Assembly (NCBI GenBank): GCA_016182105.1
Contig: JACOXZ010000015.1
Location: 1 to 36,623 of the forward strand
Direction of reading: 5' to 3'
DNA from: Candidatus Liptonbacteria bacterium
GTDB lineage: Bacteria; Patescibacteriota; Minisyncoccia; UBA6257; 2-01-FULL-56-20
Length of the DNA stretch: 36,623 bases
In this document: positions 10,847 through 36,623 of the stretch, in pieces
How positions within the stretch are numbered: position 1 is the first letter of the stretch
How the letters are laid out: every line of letters starts with the position of its first letter
Made by a program: the position numbers and the translations under genes
Notes under the pieces: model-generated
Seen by the model: only the letters and a program-made list of their open reading frames with translations
Databases searched by the model: none
Told to the model about the DNA's origin: nothing

Positions 10847-10881
10847 CTTTAAACATTATTTTCATTATTGCTTTGTTAGTT

Positions 10882-10899
10882 AAATTTCTAACGGGATCC
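10882..10899. repeat. Single AAATTTCTAACGGGATCC half-unit
   Basis: Same 18-nt unit as the inner arms of the elements at 11715-11931 and 33677-33861. Confidence 0.85.
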
Positions 10900-10904
10900 A
10901 TGGA

Positions 10905-11714
10905 TTAGCGGTAATAAGCCCTGTTTTCAACCCGTAAATCCAAGTAGTCCAGTTTCTTGAATCCGGTTTTTTCTAAAAGGGATTGGATGACGGCTAGAGT
11001 ATTTTCCGCAGGAAAACGCAAACTGAAATAAATTTTCGGTCCATCGTAAGTATCGACTTCGACTTCTTGAAGCCCTAGGTTCTTGAGACTAATTTCTTTA
11101 ATGCTTAAGCTCGATTGGTTAATCACTTCAAAAATTGAGATGAGGTTTGGAATAAAACCTTCAGGCAGAATCTTCGAGCCCAAACGCAGATTTTCCTGGT
11201 AATAATCGTTTAGGGATTTTATCAGATTGCCCTCAACTTCAAAAAATCTTTTGAAAATCACGCCCTCGCGGTCAAACCAAAAGCATTCTGAGGGTAAATT
11301 TTTCTTGAGGCACAAAACACCGAAAGGTTCCCGTTCGGTCACGGTTAAAATAATGCTTCTCTCCCCATAATTTTTTTTGACTTGAAGACTTCCGAGAGTT
11401 GGCAAGGACGCCAAACTCTCATGCCCAACTTCCTTGGGCCAGGCTAAGAAATTTTCGAATCCCAAAAAGTTTCTTAAAAATGATCCTTGAAGAATGAAGT
11501 TTTTGACGAGCCCGATAACCTCTTCTTTTTTAATATCTTTATTACCTAAAACCGTTATCTTCTCCACATTAAAAAAAGACGACCGGAATATGAGCCATCC
11601 GCCGCCTAAAATCAGCGCAAAAAAAAATACGGAAACTGAAATCAGTTTAAAGTAAATCCGCTGTCGCCGCCGACGCCTCTGGCCTTCGTAGAAATAAGTA
11701 CCGGTCTCGATCAT
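10905..11714 (-). CDS. ftsQ: FtsQ/DivIB-type POTRA cell-division protein
   Basis: N-terminal TM, FFNVEKITVLGNKDIKKEEV POTRA-like, VTEREPFGVLC, CFWFDREGVIF, LDLRVENRAYYR. Confidence 0.8.
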   Translation of the reverse strand: MIETGTYFYEGQRRRRRQRIYFKLISVSVFFFALILGGGWLIFRSSFFNVEKITVLGNKDIKKEEVIGLVKNFILQGSFLRNFLGFENFLAWPKEVGHESLASLPTLGSLQVKKNYGERSIILTVTEREPFGVLCLKKNLPSECFWFDREGVIFKRFFEVEGNLIKSLNDYYQENLRLGSKILPEGFIPNLISIFEVINQSSLSIKEISLKNLGLQEVEVDTYDGPKIYFSLRFPAENTLAVIQSLLEKTGFKKLDYLDLRVENRAYYR

Positions 11715-11931
11715 CCCGTTAGAGATAGGATCCCGTTAGAAATTTAACAGTCATCGACTTTTCGAAATAAATTACTTTTCTTCTTTTAGTCATTGTTTTC
11801 ATATATTAAATATATTAATGGATTGCAAAATTTCTAACGGGATCCGTTAATATCACGCAAGACCTTTGGCTGGTGTAAGCTCATAATTACAAAACTGGAT
11901 GCAGTTCATAAGATGGGGCATCTCTAACGGG
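11715..11931. mobile_element. MITE-like intergenic element, copy A, outer TIR CCCGTTAGAGAT, nested inner IR GGATCCCGTTAGAAATTT
   Basis: Outer arms 11715-11726/11920-11931; inner arms 11729-11746/11828-11845; homologous to 33677-33861; flanked by ATCAT on both sides. Confidence 0.8.
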
Positions 11932-11935
11932 ATCA

Positions 11936-13078
11936 TCAGGCTAAAACCCTTTGGATCAATGGGTTCAAGCGCGTCAAAAATTCGTAGTGGACGGTGCCCA
12001 GTTTCTCCGCGACTTCAAAAGCTTTGAGCTCGGCTTCACGGTCTCGCCCGACTAAAGTCACGACATCGCCCGGCCGGCAGACGATATTCTGGACATTCAA
12101 AGTCGTAAGATCCATTGATACCCGACCAAGGACTTTTGCCCTTTTGCCGCAGACAATCGCCTCGCCGATATTCGAGAGACCGCGAGGAAAACCGTGCCAG
12201 TAGCCAACCGGCAAAACCGCAATTTTTGTCGATTGCTTGAGGCGTTCCGTGAGGTCATAGCCAACAAAACTCTCTGCGGCCGCCTGCTTCACTTCGCTTA
12301 AAACCGCCCTCCAGCTTAAAACCGGCCACAGGCGAATCTTTGGCAAATGGATTTCAAGTTCTTTTGACGGCCATAGACCGTAAAGACCGATGCCTATCCG
12401 AACCGCATCTAAGTGGTATTTTTTATCTACTAGAGTCGCGCCGGTTGCAGAGGAGTGTTTAATTAAGTTTTTATAGCCAGCCTTTTCAAAAAGACGGTTG
12501 GCTTTTTCGAATTTTTTGAACTGTACCTCGGTGTAGGTCGGATAATTAATGTCTTTGGCTGAAGCAAAGTGGGTATAAATTCCCTTAAAACTAGGTTTTA
12601 GGTGAGAGGTTTTAGGTTTTAGAAACCTAATAACCGCTGGCAGGTCTTCTAGATAAAACCCCTGACGATTCATGCCTGTGTCAATCTTTAGATGAAAAGT
12701 CGGCGGGTTTTTGGATTTTAAGAGGGATTTTAAGGCCTCGAAGCTCGAAACGGTGAGTGCAATGTCATTCGTCGTCCCTTCGGCGAGGCGCGCCGGAAAG
12801 GTCGGCCCCAAAACAAGAATCGGTTTTTTTATTTTTTCTTTTCGGAGGCGAAGGCCTTCAATAACACTATCAACGCAGAAACCGTCCACGCCCTCTTCCG
12901 CGGCTTTGGCGAAAATCGAGAGGCCGTGGCCGTAGGCATTGGATTTAACGACTGACCAAAGCTTTGCCTTGGGTCCGATGATTTTTCGAAAAGTGTCGCA
13001 GTTCCTTCTAATCGCGTTTTGGTCAATCTCTATCCACGTTTTAAAACCTTGTTCAGCTAATGCTCTCTTGGCCAACAT
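11936..13078 (-). CDS. alr: Alanine racemase
   Basis: WSVVKSNAYGHG (PLP lysine), KIDTGMNRQGF, GIYTHFASA, VLPVGYWHGFPRGL, VSMDLTTLNV motifs. Confidence 0.96.
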   Translation of the reverse strand: MLAKRALAEQGFKTWIEIDQNAIRRNCDTFRKIIGPKAKLWSVVKSNAYGHGLSIFAKAAEEGVDGFCVDSVIEGLRLRKEKIKKPILVLGPTFPARLAEGTTNDIALTVSSFEALKSLLKSKNPPTFHLKIDTGMNRQGFYLEDLPAVIRFLKPKTSHLKPSFKGIYTHFASAKDINYPTYTEVQFKKFEKANRLFEKAGYKNLIKHSSATGATLVDKKYHLDAVRIGIGLYGLWPSKELEIHLPKIRLWPVLSWRAVLSEVKQAAAESFVGYDLTERLKQSTKIAVLPVGYWHGFPRGLSNIGEAIVCGKRAKVLGRVSMDLTTLNVQNIVCRPGDVVTLVGRDREAELKAFEVAEKLGTVHYEFLTRLNPLIQRVLA

Positions 13079-14321: not shown

Positions 14322-14576
14322 CTATTCGTAAATATCTTTCCGATGGCCGATCACGAAGAAAACAGTGTTGTCCCGATCAAAATAAAAAAGCACGCGGTAG
14401 CGGCGTGTCACGCGAAACGAATAAGCGCCAGGGAGGTCCTTGAGACGCTTTACGTGAAGCCGTGAATCGAGCCAGCTCTCTCTGAAAATCTTTTCCTGTT
14501 TGTGGAAAATGCGCTGGACTTCCCGCGGAAGCTTTCGGAAAGCGTCGGCAAAATCCTTCGTCCTCCGAATGACCAT
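14322..14576 (-). CDS. RelE/ParE-superfamily toxin-like protein
   Basis: 84 aa; FADAFRKLP...RLKDLPGAYSFRVTRRYRVLFYFDRDNTVFFVIGHRKDIY. Confidence 0.8.
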   Translation of the reverse strand: MVIRRTKDFADAFRKLPREVQRIFHKQEKIFRESWLDSRLHVKRLKDLPGAYSFRVTRRYRVLFYFDRDNTVFFVIGHRKDIYE

Positions 14577-22823: not shown

Positions 22824-23285
22824 TTAGAAAGGTAAATCTTCGGGCTGAATCTCCTCTTTTCCTTCTTCAATATTTATCACCGGCACCTCCTCTGTGGGAA
22901 GCGGCTGACTGTCTGGAGCGGAAGAGCTGGAGGATTGACGGGGTGTTCCGCCTCCGCCGGGACGCGGCCCCAACTGAAGCCGCTCGCAGATAACCTCTGT
23001 GGTTTTCCTCTGCTGACCCTGCCTATCAGCCCAAGAGCGCGTCTGGAGCCGACCTTCAACCAAAACCATGCTGCCCTTAGTCAAGAATTGGCTCGCAATC
23101 TCCGCCTGTTTGCCCCATGCAACTACGTTATGATATTCAGCGCTTTCTTTGCGGCTTCCGGATTTATCAGTCCAAACGCGGTTCGTGGCGACCGCGAAAC
23201 TTGCCACTGACTGGCCGCTTGGAGTAGTCCGTAATTGCGGATCGGCTGTGAGTCTTCCTAATATGAAAATTTTATTGAGGTTCAT
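22824..23285 (-). CDS. ssb: Single-stranded DNA-binding protein
   Basis: MNLNKIFILGRLTADPQLRTTPSGQSVASFAVATNRVW; acidic C-terminal DLPF. Confidence 0.97.
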   Translation of the reverse strand: MNLNKIFILGRLTADPQLRTTPSGQSVASFAVATNRVWTDKSGSRKESAEYHNVVAWGKQAEIASQFLTKGSMVLVEGRLQTRSWADRQGQQRKTTEVICERLQLGPRPGGGGTPRQSSSSSAPDSQPLPTEEVPVINIEEGKEEIQPEDLPF

Positions 23286-23398
23286 CCCGTTAGAAGCAGA
23301 TCGCGATCTGCGCAGGTCCGCAGGTTTATTTTATTGTAACGACTATGCATTTGGTTGACATTTAGTTTATTTGCAACGCGATCGCGGCTTCTAACGGG
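23286..23398. mobile_element. MITE-like element, short variant, TIR CCCGTTAGAAGC/GCTTCTAACGGG
   Basis: 12-bp perfect TIRs at 23286-23297 and 23387-23398; TTCAT on both sides. Confidence 0.7.
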
Positions 23399-23405
23399 AT
23401 TCATT

Positions 23406-31897: not shown

Positions 31898-32921
31898 TCA
31901 CAATAGCTAAGAGAAGAAAGCTTGTCAAAAGACTGGAGCCGCCGTAGCTAAGGAATGGGAAAGTGACGCCGATAACCGGCGTAAAGCCGATGGCCGAACC
32001 GAGATTTAAAAAGAATTGAAGGCCGAAAACAATGGCTACACCTAAGCAAATGAACTTCTCAAAATTCCGGTGAGCTATAATCCCTATCTTAAGAATACGA
32101 TAAATTAAGGCAAGGAATGCCGTAATAACGAGGATCCCGGCGAGCCAGCCCCATTCTTCGGTCAAGGCCGAAAAAATAAAGTCTGTAGCCGGTTCGGTTA
32201 AAAACCCGAGCTGGGTCTCTGTGCCTTGGCCGTAACCCTTGCCAAAAAAACCAGCTGAACCAATGGCGATTTTTGACTGAAGAAGACTGTAATTAATGCT
32301 TAAAACATTTTTTTCCGGGTAAAAAACGCCGATAATCCTCTCTTTTTGATAGTCCTTTAGAACAGACTGCCACATAAAAAGTCCTAGAACAAGGAAAATC
32401 GCCGAGGCAGCTAAAATCCGTTTAAGAGGGAGGCCGCTTACCAAAAGAAAACCGAACCAGATGCCGAAAAGAACCAGAACTGAACCTAAATCCGGCTGAA
32501 GAACGACGAGGGTTGAGGGCATGGCAAAATACAAAAAAGAGGTTAAAATATTTTTCCATCGGGCAATCGAGAGATGACGCCGGCTGAAATACTGGGCATA
32601 AAGAAAAATCAAGCTTACCTTAACAAGCTCCACCGGCTGAAAATTAAACGGCCCCAAAACCAACCAGCTTCTCGTCCCTCGAATAACCGGGCTACTCAAA
32701 TAAACAAAGACTAAAAGGCCAAGGACAAAGATATAAAAACCGGAAATGAGCCACCGGTAATTCAAGATCGTCCGCCAATCAATAAAGAGAAAAATTCCGA
32801 CCAAAAGCGAACCAAGCGCCGCCCAAATTAGCTGCAGAGAAAAAAGATGAGGGGATATTGAGGAAAGGGTAATCAGTCCAGCGATAATCAAAAATCCAGT
32901 TGGTGCTAAGAGAGAAATCAT
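31875..32921 (-). CDS. SEDS family protein (FtsW/RodA)
   Basis: Polytopic; NFQPVELVKVSLI, LQPDLGSVLVLFGIW, GYGQGTETQLGFLTEPATDFIFSALTEEWGW, FPFLSYGGSSLL. Confidence 0.95.
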   Translation of the reverse strand: MISLLAPTGFLIIAGLITLSSISPHLFSLQLIWAALGSLLVGIFLFIDWRTILNYRWLISGFYIFVLGLLVFVYLSSPVIRGTRSWLVLGPFNFQPVELVKVSLIFLYAQYFSRRHLSIARWKNILTSFLYFAMPSTLVVLQPDLGSVLVLFGIWFGFLLVSGLPLKRILAASAIFLVLGLFMWQSVLKDYQKERIIGVFYPEKNVLSINYSLLQSKIAIGSAGFFGKGYGQGTETQLGFLTEPATDFIFSALTEEWGWLAGILVITAFLALIYRILKIGIIAHRNFEKFICLGVAIVFGLQFFLNLGSAIGFTPVIGVTFPFLSYGGSSLLTSFLLLAIVNAIAKRS

Positions 32922-33676
32922 CTTCTGGAAAAAAAGAAGATACGCGTGGCTCTGGGATTGATATTTAAGACAGGAGGATGGTTGATTGAGAAAGCGCGGC
33001 TCTCATTGGGAAGAAGATTTTCCACCTCTGATTGGGAAGCGCCGGCGATTTGGCCAAATTTGCCGTAAAAAAGTCCGATGATTTTAAGAGAAGGCAAAAC
33101 AACAGTGTCTAAATTAACCACCCGGCCTTGAACTTCTATGCCGTCACTACTTAAAACCGTCTCATGATATTGAATATTGACTTTTGGCCGTGGAAAATCT
33201 TCAGCCTTGACCCACTTTTCATCTTGAATCTTAATCGAGGCCCGATATACTTCTTTGTTTGGAAGGTTTAGATTCGCTAGTAAAATATAGCGATCAACTT
33301 CGCCGGCATAGATGAAAGACTCGCCTGAAAAATTTTGGATCAAGCTTCCCTCTTCGTTATAAAGACTAAAAGTGTATATAAAACTTCTTGCGGCGTAATC
33401 AAGGTTTGGGTTTCTCGCTCGCGAAAGCAGGCTCAAATGCGACTCATCAGGACGGAGGATTCTTCCTTCCTCGAGAATTTCGATCGGCTTTACTTCGCTA
33501 CGGCAAACTTGAAGACAGGGTCCGCCGCAATCAACCCCCCTTTCACCCTGGTTTTTAACTTTATCAAAACAACTAGCTTCGGTTTTGAAAAAAATGAGAT
33601 ATACAAAAAAGGATATAAATAAAAATACTGCCAAATAAGAAGAAATGTAGATGACTTGCCTCGCGCGCCGGCTCAT
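32918..33676 (-). CDS. Hypothetical single-TM protein with CPR-type DCGGPC motif
   Basis: N-terminal TM; CFDKVKNQGERGVDCGGPCLQVC. Confidence 0.75.
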   Translation of the reverse strand: MSRRARQVIYISSYLAVFLFISFFVYLIFFKTEASCFDKVKNQGERGVDCGGPCLQVCRSEVKPIEILEEGRILRPDESHLSLLSRARNPNLDYAARSFIYTFSLYNEEGSLIQNFSGESFIYAGEVDRYILLANLNLPNKEVYRASIKIQDEKWVKAEDFPRPKVNIQYHETVLSSDGIEVQGRVVNLDTVVLPSLKIIGLFYGKFGQIAGASQSEVENLLPNESRAFSINHPPVLNINPRATRIFFFSRR

Positions 33677-33861
33677 CCCGTTAGAGATAGGATCCCGTTA
33701 GAAATTTAACAGTCATCGACTTTTCGAAATAAATTACTTTTCTTCTTTTAGTCATTGTTTTCATATATTAAAATGGATTGCAAAATTTCTAACGGGATCC
33801 GTTGATATCACGCAAGACCTTTGGCTGGATGCAGTTCATAAGATGGGGCATCTCTAACGGG
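33677..33861. mobile_element. MITE-like intergenic element, copy B
   Basis: Homologous to 11715-11931 with two internal deletions; TIRs CCCGTTAGAGAT/ATCTCTAACGGG; CTCAT at 33672-33676 and 33863-33867. Confidence 0.8.
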
Positions 33862-33901
33862 ACTCATGATAACTCATTATAACGAAATTGTTTCTGCCCA
33901 G

Positions 33902-35420: not shown

Positions 35421-35550
35421 GTAATAAGTCAGTATTGGGATGGTTGGCGACGGTTCATTAGTACTCCTTGGCTAAAGCCCTTGCGAGCCTTACACCTAGA
35501 GCCTATCAAGGTCGTAGTCTTCAACCGAACCTGCACCTTGTCTTGGGGTG

Positions 35551-35583
<33 letters not shown>

Positions 35584-35684
35584 CGTCCGAACATAGCTAC
35601 CCGGCGCTTCAGCAGGTGCCAAAGCCGGTAGACCAGAGGTCCGTTCAGCCCAGTCCTCTCGTACTAGGGCCAACTCCCCTCAAG

Positions 35685-35820
35685 TGCTTACGCTCGCATT
35701 CGCTCGCTTATGCGATGCCAATCTACGAATGCATGCGAATGCCGCAAATAATTTTCGCAGAATTCGCATGGAATTCGCATTTTTCGCATCGCGGTGAGCG
35801 AAACGAAGTTGAGCGATTAC
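35685..35820 (-). other. ~135-nt palindrome-rich insertion in 23S rRNA around helix 94
   Basis: Between GCAGGCGTA and CTTGAGGGGAGTTGGCCCTAGTACGAGAGG; repeated GCGAAT/ATTCGC words. Confidence 0.7.
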
Positions 35821-35853
35821 GCCTGCAGCAGATAGAGACCGACCTGTCTCACG

Positions 35854-36525
35854 CTTACTGTAATCTCCTATTACTAAGAGTGTCGGACTATACCACCATC
35901 CAGCTGTAGTTTTCTAAACTACGGCCGGAGATCGACGTGTAGTCTCTACGGGGTTAATGTATGTCGTTTTCGCTTCTTCGAATAATTCAATTCACGAAAA
36001 TGATCAATTAGTTTTGCCATCGCAGAAAAATCATCTTTGTTTTTAACTTCCGCTTTTGAGTCAAGAATTTTAATCATCAAAGATGCTTGTTCTCGTTTAA
36101 GGATTAGATATGGTTTTACCATCTGAAGAAAAGTGCGAATTGCGTCTTCTCTTCCGATGGTGTATTCGAGAATCCCATCCTTACGTTCACGTATATATCC
36201 AAGATCAATAAGCGAGCAAATTTTGTTAAATTTCTCTCGCTCTTTTTGAGACTGAAATAACACTATATACGGAGCGATCTGAAAACCGTAACGATACGAA
36301 TCGTTAGGTTTCATCCTCACGTAAATACTGCCATCTCCGTCTAAAAATCCTGCAATATATGCTTTCTGCGTTGACGAAAGACTTTTCATACACAACTTCC
36401 CTCGGTATTATCCTAACATATGACAGGTTGACATACAATAGGACTTCACCGATATGAGTCGATTTATTCGAGCAACCTTACGGTCGCAAGCCGCCGTGTT
36501 TGATGTCTCCTCGGTTCAGTTGTTG
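35854..36525 (-). mobile_element. Group I intron in 23S rRNA at approximately E. coli position 2593
   Basis: Exons ...GGGTTCAGACCGT | CAACAACTG ... AGTAAG | CGTGAGACAGG; 5' exon ends in T, intron ends in G; core-like GACTACACG...GGTATAGTCC. Confidence 0.85.
35946..36395 (-). CDS. Single-motif LAGLIDADG homing endonuclease, I-CreI-like
   Basis: YIAGFLDGDGSIYVRMKPNDSYRYGFQIAPYIVLFQ...LGYIRERKDGILEYTI...LKREQASLMIKIL resembles I-CreI. Confidence 0.92.
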   Translation of the reverse strand: MCMKSLSSTQKAYIAGFLDGDGSIYVRMKPNDSYRYGFQIAPYIVLFQSQKEREKFNKICSLIDLGYIRERKDGILEYTIGREDAIRTFLQMVKPYLILKREQASLMIKILDSKAEVKNKDDFSAMAKLIDHFRELNYSKKRKRHTLTP

Positions 36526-36623
36526 ACGGTCTGAACCCAGCTCACGTGCCCTTTTAATTGGCGAACAGCCAAACGCTTGGGAGCTTCTTCACCCCCGCGC
36601 TAGGGCGAGCCGACATCGAGGTG

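Follow-up and report, generated by a model that had tools for sequence, protein, structure and literature searches.

The element that occupies the gap between alr and ftsQ (copy A) in the 36,623-nucleotide stretch of DNA analysed here (the window) is best explained, with a probability of roughly 70%, as a nested, non-autonomous and MITE-like member of a family of minimal insertion elements with a GIY-YIG nuclease. The short elements are taken as MITE-like relatives because their ends, their duplications, the empty sites of some of them and a 275-bp nuclease-coding copy in the same genome all agree. In the minimal insertion element, a GIY-YIG nuclease appears to take the role otherwise played by known transposases.

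Copy A and its relatives in the window

The source genome comprises 588 kb in 28 contigs and is 94% complete. The small genomes seen across the order, together with a LAGLIDADG insertion in 23S rRNA, suggest that it belongs to the Patescibacteria/CPR. Copy A lies on the minus strand, where its outer short element (11715-11932, class 2 ends GAGAT...ATCTC, oriented towards ftsQ) separates the upstream alanine racemase gene alr (11936-13078, minus strand) from a downstream ORF (10905-11714, minus strand) that was named ftsQ in the preliminary description and has no Pfam match. The outer arms (11715/11931) and inner arms (11732/11841), with the bounds CCCGTTAGAGAT/ATCTCTAACGGG, lie as that description placed them, and it had also correctly read the junction CTAACGGG|ATG and the end of the element at 11715, the base preceding the ftsQ ATG (11714-11712). 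At the far end, a single base (11932) stands between the arm and a repeated ATGA at the alr stop codon (11938-11936). The ATCAT noted on both sides is indeed present, although it is actually a duplicate of the ftsQ start region (ATGA) plus a T owned by the element, namely position 11932 (A on the plus strand). The gene-side target copy is the ATGAT formed by the first codon(s) of ftsQ (11710-11714, minus strand), and the upstream target copy ATGA (11933-11936, minus strand) overlaps the alr stop codon TGA (11936-11938). The inner element (11732-11841, minus strand) has the ends AAATTT...AAATTT and is flanked by GGAT and ATCC with no clear duplication. It replaces the hairpin GGAAACGC-AGA-GCGTTTCC of uninterrupted class-2 elements, and in copy A it sits at exactly that position. 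A solo 21-bp end fragment identical to the inner-element end, GTTAAATTTCTAACGGGATCC, is found just downstream of ftsQ (10879-10899, plus strand), and no partner for it was found nearby.

The same nested composite, with an internal deletion, recurs as copy B at another start codon (185 bp, 33677-33861, or 33677-33862 as a feature, minus strand; inner element 33694-33796, minus strand). Here the gene-side ATGAG (33672-33676, minus strand) belongs to the ORF at 32918-33676, and its upstream duplicate occupies 33863-33867 (minus strand), so that copies A and B are one and the same composite, placed at two start codons and flanked by a different duplication at each. A class-1 short element of 113 bp, AAGCCGCGATCGC...GATCGCGATCTGCTT, is located at the ssb start codon (23286-23399, minus strand), between the gene-side ATGAA of ssb (23281-23285, minus strand; SSB, 22824-23285) and an upstream duplicate ATGAA (23400-23404, minus strand). 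It contains an open frame, MNPVRSRDRVANKLNVNQMHSRYNKINLRTCADRDLLLTG*, which runs from the upstream ATG to a TGA overlapping the ssb ATG. Elsewhere in the window, the 3' part of a 23S rRNA gene with an insertion was seen at 35439-36623, with a LAGLIDADG_1 ORF at 35946-36395, a kind of insertion known from CPR rRNA; a small ORF at 14322-14576 has a weak match, under the curated cut-off, to a ParE-like toxin domain.

Start-codon placement, target duplication and empty sites

The window contains 11 occurrences of the end motif CCCGTTAGA where 0.32 would be expected, a count never matched in 100 shuffles, and the source genome contains 91 against 7 for the reversed control. The motif is therefore not confined to this locus, and the reading of copy A as a non-autonomous terminal-inverted-repeat element is supported. 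Almost every copy has an inverted partner at a distance of 94-122 bp, giving about 43 pairs in the source genome. Its non-nested pairs number 41. In 37 of these one end directly abuts an ATG, which in 36 cases begins an ORF of 40 codons or more, and the other four lie away from any ATG. The layout towards the gene is ATGNN-T-CCCGTTAGA ... TCTAACGGG-ATGNN in a fixed orientation; a T precedes CCC in 34/34 source-genome copies, and ahead of that T stands a repeat of the gene's initial 4-5 bases (ATGAA, ATGAG, ATGGG).

Given that repetition of ATG alone could reflect selection, the bases after it were taken as the test. Bases 4-5 of the duplication equalled those of the gene in 25/26 source-genome copies (shuffled mean 15.8; 0/5000 as good) and in 40/42 copies from eight other genomes (shuffled mean 19.4; 0/5000). 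The eight-genome set was picked by a pattern requiring both T before CCC and ATG after GGG and is thus uninformative on those two features, which are measured by the source-genome set; for full-length copies the test is powerless because their targets are nearly all ATGAA. As far as sequence comparison can tell, these results show that the 4-5 bp at the start codon (ATGNN) are a target-site duplication. A target consisting simply of ATGA was ruled out, as ATGGA, ATGGG and ATGCA starts are also used.

Filled and empty sites were compared among congeners, with the gene names pyrG, metG and eno taken from translated starts. A 290-bp copy is found in G132 and G130 at the start of a CTP-synthase-like gene (MKYIFVAGGVISGVGKG), where the filled junction reads ...GAAGGG-ATGAA-T-CCCGTTAGAG...TCTAACGGG-ATGAAGTACATA. 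The corresponding site in congener G131 is empty, reading ...CAAAAAACT-ATGAAATACATA with a single ATGAA, and both flanks are 82-84% identical. Short elements at metG and eno in G130 are absent from G132 and G131, respectively, with flanks that align nearly gapless; the duplication is clean at the empty-site comparison in pyrG only, the metG and eno junctions not being clean. Insertion of the elements is shown by such site comparisons. The identical placement in relatives expected of a conserved regulatory element was not found: comparable sites are empty in congeners, these being the sites of other carriers and not the alr-ftsQ site itself. The eno copy of G130 sits at an ATGAA on the antisense strand and not at a start codon, which suggests that ATG as such is the target and that selection has mostly retained insertions at start codons. 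In G132, the same place upstream of eno (L256/L263) harbours an element of about 130 bp from a different repeat family (CCCTCACATAACATGCA).

The full-length element, its nuclease and possible translation through it

The preliminary description had called for a search for a transposase with matching ends; what was found is a GIY-YIG nuclease gene within a 275-bp copy in the source genome (L051:3721-3995) that has class-2 ends and a duplicated ATGAA. This copy encodes an 85-aa protein whose sole Pfam match is PF01541 (55 bits), and the 24 bases at the start of the copy and the 23 at its end recur in class-2 short copies, with substitutions in some. Its ends (GAGAT) fit class 2 only, and classes 1, 3 and 4 share just CCCGTTAGA with it. 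Its ORF contains the inverted repeat GGAAACGCTTTAACC/GGTTAAAGCGTTTCC, and the short copies retain the hairpin described above. Full-length members in general measure about 275-290 bp, carry 13-16 bp terminal inverted repeats (TCCCGTTAGAG...) and have a single ORF for a single-domain GIY-YIG nuclease of 80-85 residues, and nothing else. The invariant residues Y5, Y15, G17, R25, H29, E49 and E61 are the expected catalytic set, there is a weak match to the group I intron endonuclease TIGR01453, and the nuclease is, by its dN/dS of 0.06-0.35, under purifying selection.

Relatives of the nuclease were found in 157/245 genomes of the order at E<=1e-10 and in 101/381 genomes of a phylum sample at E<=1e-15. 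The close set (62-100% identity) almost always displays ATGAAT|CCCGTTAGAG, the nuclease, ...RFLSLTG and the host ATG, the exceptions among readable close homologues being L101 (nested) and L108 (altered left end, no ATG). Distant relatives (45-60%) possess other ends, for example ACCCCGTTAGATA, ACCCTGTTAAATAA and ACCCTCCCAACTTTTGAAA, and full-length copies across many repeat families hold the GIY-YIG ORF alone in about 265-318 bp. Perfect inverted repeats of at least 13 bp were located in the expected place in 47/69 homologues versus 2.3% of control positions, a conservative control because it was drawn from the same loci; at housekeeping-type GIY-YIG loci of the same order, no flanking repeats above background were found. 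Both ends have been altered jointly in L106 (CCCGTACGAAAC/GTTTCGTACGGG; L106-type ends, CCCGTACGA) and in L092 (CCCGTTAAAGAC/GTCTTTAACGGG), which argues that one factor reads both ends. The host genes of the elements differ between genomes.

Several other arrangements were also seen. A second repeat family in the source genome, CCCCCACACTAAT...ATTAGTGTGGGGG, surrounds a truncated GIY-YIG ORF (L056, C21:61167-61295), and its ends are also found on a short copy (L033, about 2080-2180). Some very short hairpins, perfect or nearly so and with the same ends (for example CCCATTAGATAAATATCTAACGGG), at L047:1987-2010, L048:2593-2616 and L033:2232-2265 are perhaps remnants or terminators. The CCCGTTAGA/TCTAACGGG pair also surrounds complete tRNA genes at L240:361-465 (G037), L238:376-464 (G024), L239:381-469 (G021) and L035:9035-9140 (source genome), with no or almost no spare base in L238 and L239. 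In L240, and apparently in L238, a second tRNA gene is split in its anticodon loop by the whole unit, so that one tRNA gene lies within another.

Where a full-length copy is inserted at ATGA, the nuclease ORF terminates at the TGA within the host ATGA (ACG GGA TGA; ...LTG*); coupling of translation through stop and start codons that overlap as ATGA is known (PMC6728339). Among 84 short copies, which are related to one another, 39 keep the frame of the upstream ATG free of stops over 85% or more of the element, compared with 10 and 15 for the other frames and 11% for the other strand. This frame ends at a TGA overlapping the ATG of the gene in 20 copies and at the TAA of TCTAACGGG in 14. The earlier statement that the element has no ORF accordingly holds for copy A, whose frame stops at about 76 nt, but not for the many copies in which the upstream-ATG frame is open throughout; many other short copies likewise have earlier stops. 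To judge by these frames, ribosomes may be able to travel from the duplicated start codon across the element and on to the gene. Shine-Dalgarno capture was rejected: no Shine-Dalgarno-like sequence was found within the element beside the gene (0/105), and there was no enrichment before the upstream ATG (11/68, background 0.13). The preliminary description held that the junction supplies the translation-initiation context; the reading frames instead favour ribosomes that come in from the duplicated upstream ATG. A strictly conserved micropeptide is unsupported because indels with lengths not divisible by three are common, even though the upstream frame is the one most often found open.

Competing explanations and known systems

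We infer that the nuclease is responsible for catalysis and movement. It would recognise the paired ends, and perhaps the subterminal hairpin, and would cut the element and a target beginning with ATG(A/G), with staggered repair producing the duplication and short elements being moved in trans. Insertions at start codons would survive because the coding sequence remains whole. From the old start codon a ribosome would read through the element in a frame that closes at the new start codon or shortly upstream of it, so that translation may re-initiate on the host gene. Counted against this explanation are the ends of classes 1, 3 and 4, which are unlike those of the nuclease copy, and the inner element without a clear duplication. 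GIY-YIG homing enzymes usually leave 2-nt overhangs and not 5, which also counts against it. A further contrary point is that binding of homing GIY-YIG enzymes to the ends of their own element is not known (PMC1564403).

That terminal inverted repeats, a short duplication and deletion derivatives make up the classic MITE picture raises the possibility that these are ordinary MITEs served by a conventional transposase elsewhere, with the GIY-YIG ORF as a passenger. We regard this as unlikely, since full-length copies across many repeat families hold that ORF and nothing else, and a search for the Y1 family found no Y1_Tnp in the source genome despite copy numbers among the highest. A Y1/RAYT mobiliser is ruled out by the same absence of Y1 (PF01797) from the 94% complete genome. 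Spread of the homing type, in which the nuclease cuts targets only and repair of the break copies the element in as for free-standing homing endonucleases, would be in keeping with GIY-YIG being a homing-nuclease fold and with the TIGR01453 match. However, the targets are numerous unrelated genes that share nothing but ATG and hence offer no flanking homology for gene conversion, the ends are paired and co-vary, a 5-bp duplication is present, and Rfam yields no intron match, all of which make this route quite improbable.

The fixed start-codon position and orientation, the strictly kept ends, the strong fold of the short elements (z -4 to -8) and the frame open from the upstream ATG would also suit a conserved host regulatory leader or translation-coupling device that is not mobile. 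By contrast, the target bases are duplicated, congeners have empty sites, host genes differ among genomes, and the same composite stands at two unrelated genes (copies A and B). As the sole explanation such a device is already contradicted, and we give it very little credence. Further candidates were rejected as well: the elements have no group I/II intron RNA match in Rfam, and an integron attC was dismissed on inspection for its reversed polarity (GTTAGA...TCTAAC around about 100 bp, no gene). The short-element pattern was not found in IMG/VR (0), the nuclease was not found in plasmids (0) and had one weak match in phage, and a viral or plasmid origin was rejected on these results; two viral contigs encode relatives of the nuclease at 52%.

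Beyond copy A, we consider it fairly probable that the minimal insertion elements constitute a class of DNA transposons, widespread in the phylum, in which a GIY-YIG nuclease of 80-85 residues would be the whole transposition machinery, with the TCCCGTTAGA family targeting start codons and passing ribosomes to the host gene. If so, these elements of about 270-320 bp would rank among the smallest autonomous transposons known, their size possibly marking a lower limit for an autonomous element, and a repair/homing nuclease fold would join the enzymes of DNA transposition. Dense operons could be entered without gene killing, as the start codon is taken and duplicated and the element stays translatable. 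The class may also account for the abundance of tiny GIY-YIG ORFs in these reduced genomes, and perhaps for some of the rRNA/tRNA insertions that lack an ORF. In the part of the literature covered, we found no terminal-inverted-repeat element with a GIY-YIG protein as its sole gene and no published account of copy A, in line with its being called undescribed, and an earlier description may exist.

Among known systems, EN+ Penelope-like elements are transposable elements that use a GIY-YIG nuclease, but they are eukaryotic retroelements with a reverse transcriptase, of which there is none here (PMC3846280). The closest solved relatives of the nuclease are single-domain GIY-YIG proteins of the UPF0213/YhbQ type (PDB 1zg2 and 1ywl; E 5e-13 and 2e-8), whose loci in the same order, unlike those of the nuclease here, have flanking repeats not above background. 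GIY-YIG homing endonucleases and CPR rRNA insertions share the nuclease fold; in the nearest published report, PMC11270868, the CPR rRNA insertions that encode GIY-YIG proteins were like neither type of intron and were judged to lie outside spread by homing, and short (<200 bp) insertions lacking an ORF were found as well. Its main text mentions no inverted repeats and does not seem to report target duplications or start-codon sites, and in the elements described here no intron was recognised. REP/REPIN sequences with their RAYT (Y1) likewise have many short, hairpin-forming intergenic copies apparently mobilised by a separate small nuclease gene (PMC3116915), whereas here Y1_Tnp is absent, target duplications are present, and the GIY-YIG nuclease is encoded within the same repeats. 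MITEs and insertion sequences (Correia repeats, MITEAba12; reviewed in PMC10969869) are alike in being short terminal-inverted-repeat elements with target duplication, in having short copies with the ends of a full-length copy, and in that some carry signals for the next gene. The elements here differ from known insertion sequences in that their sole protein is a GIY-YIG domain of 80-85 aa and their target is a start codon. To our knowledge, known insertion sequences use DDE, DEDD, HUH, serine or tyrosine enzymes; in the full-length copies none of these transposases was found, and the GIY-YIG ORF is all that they carry. Taken together, and judged by sequence, the layout is that of an insertion sequence with its MITEs, and the enzyme fits no known transposase class.
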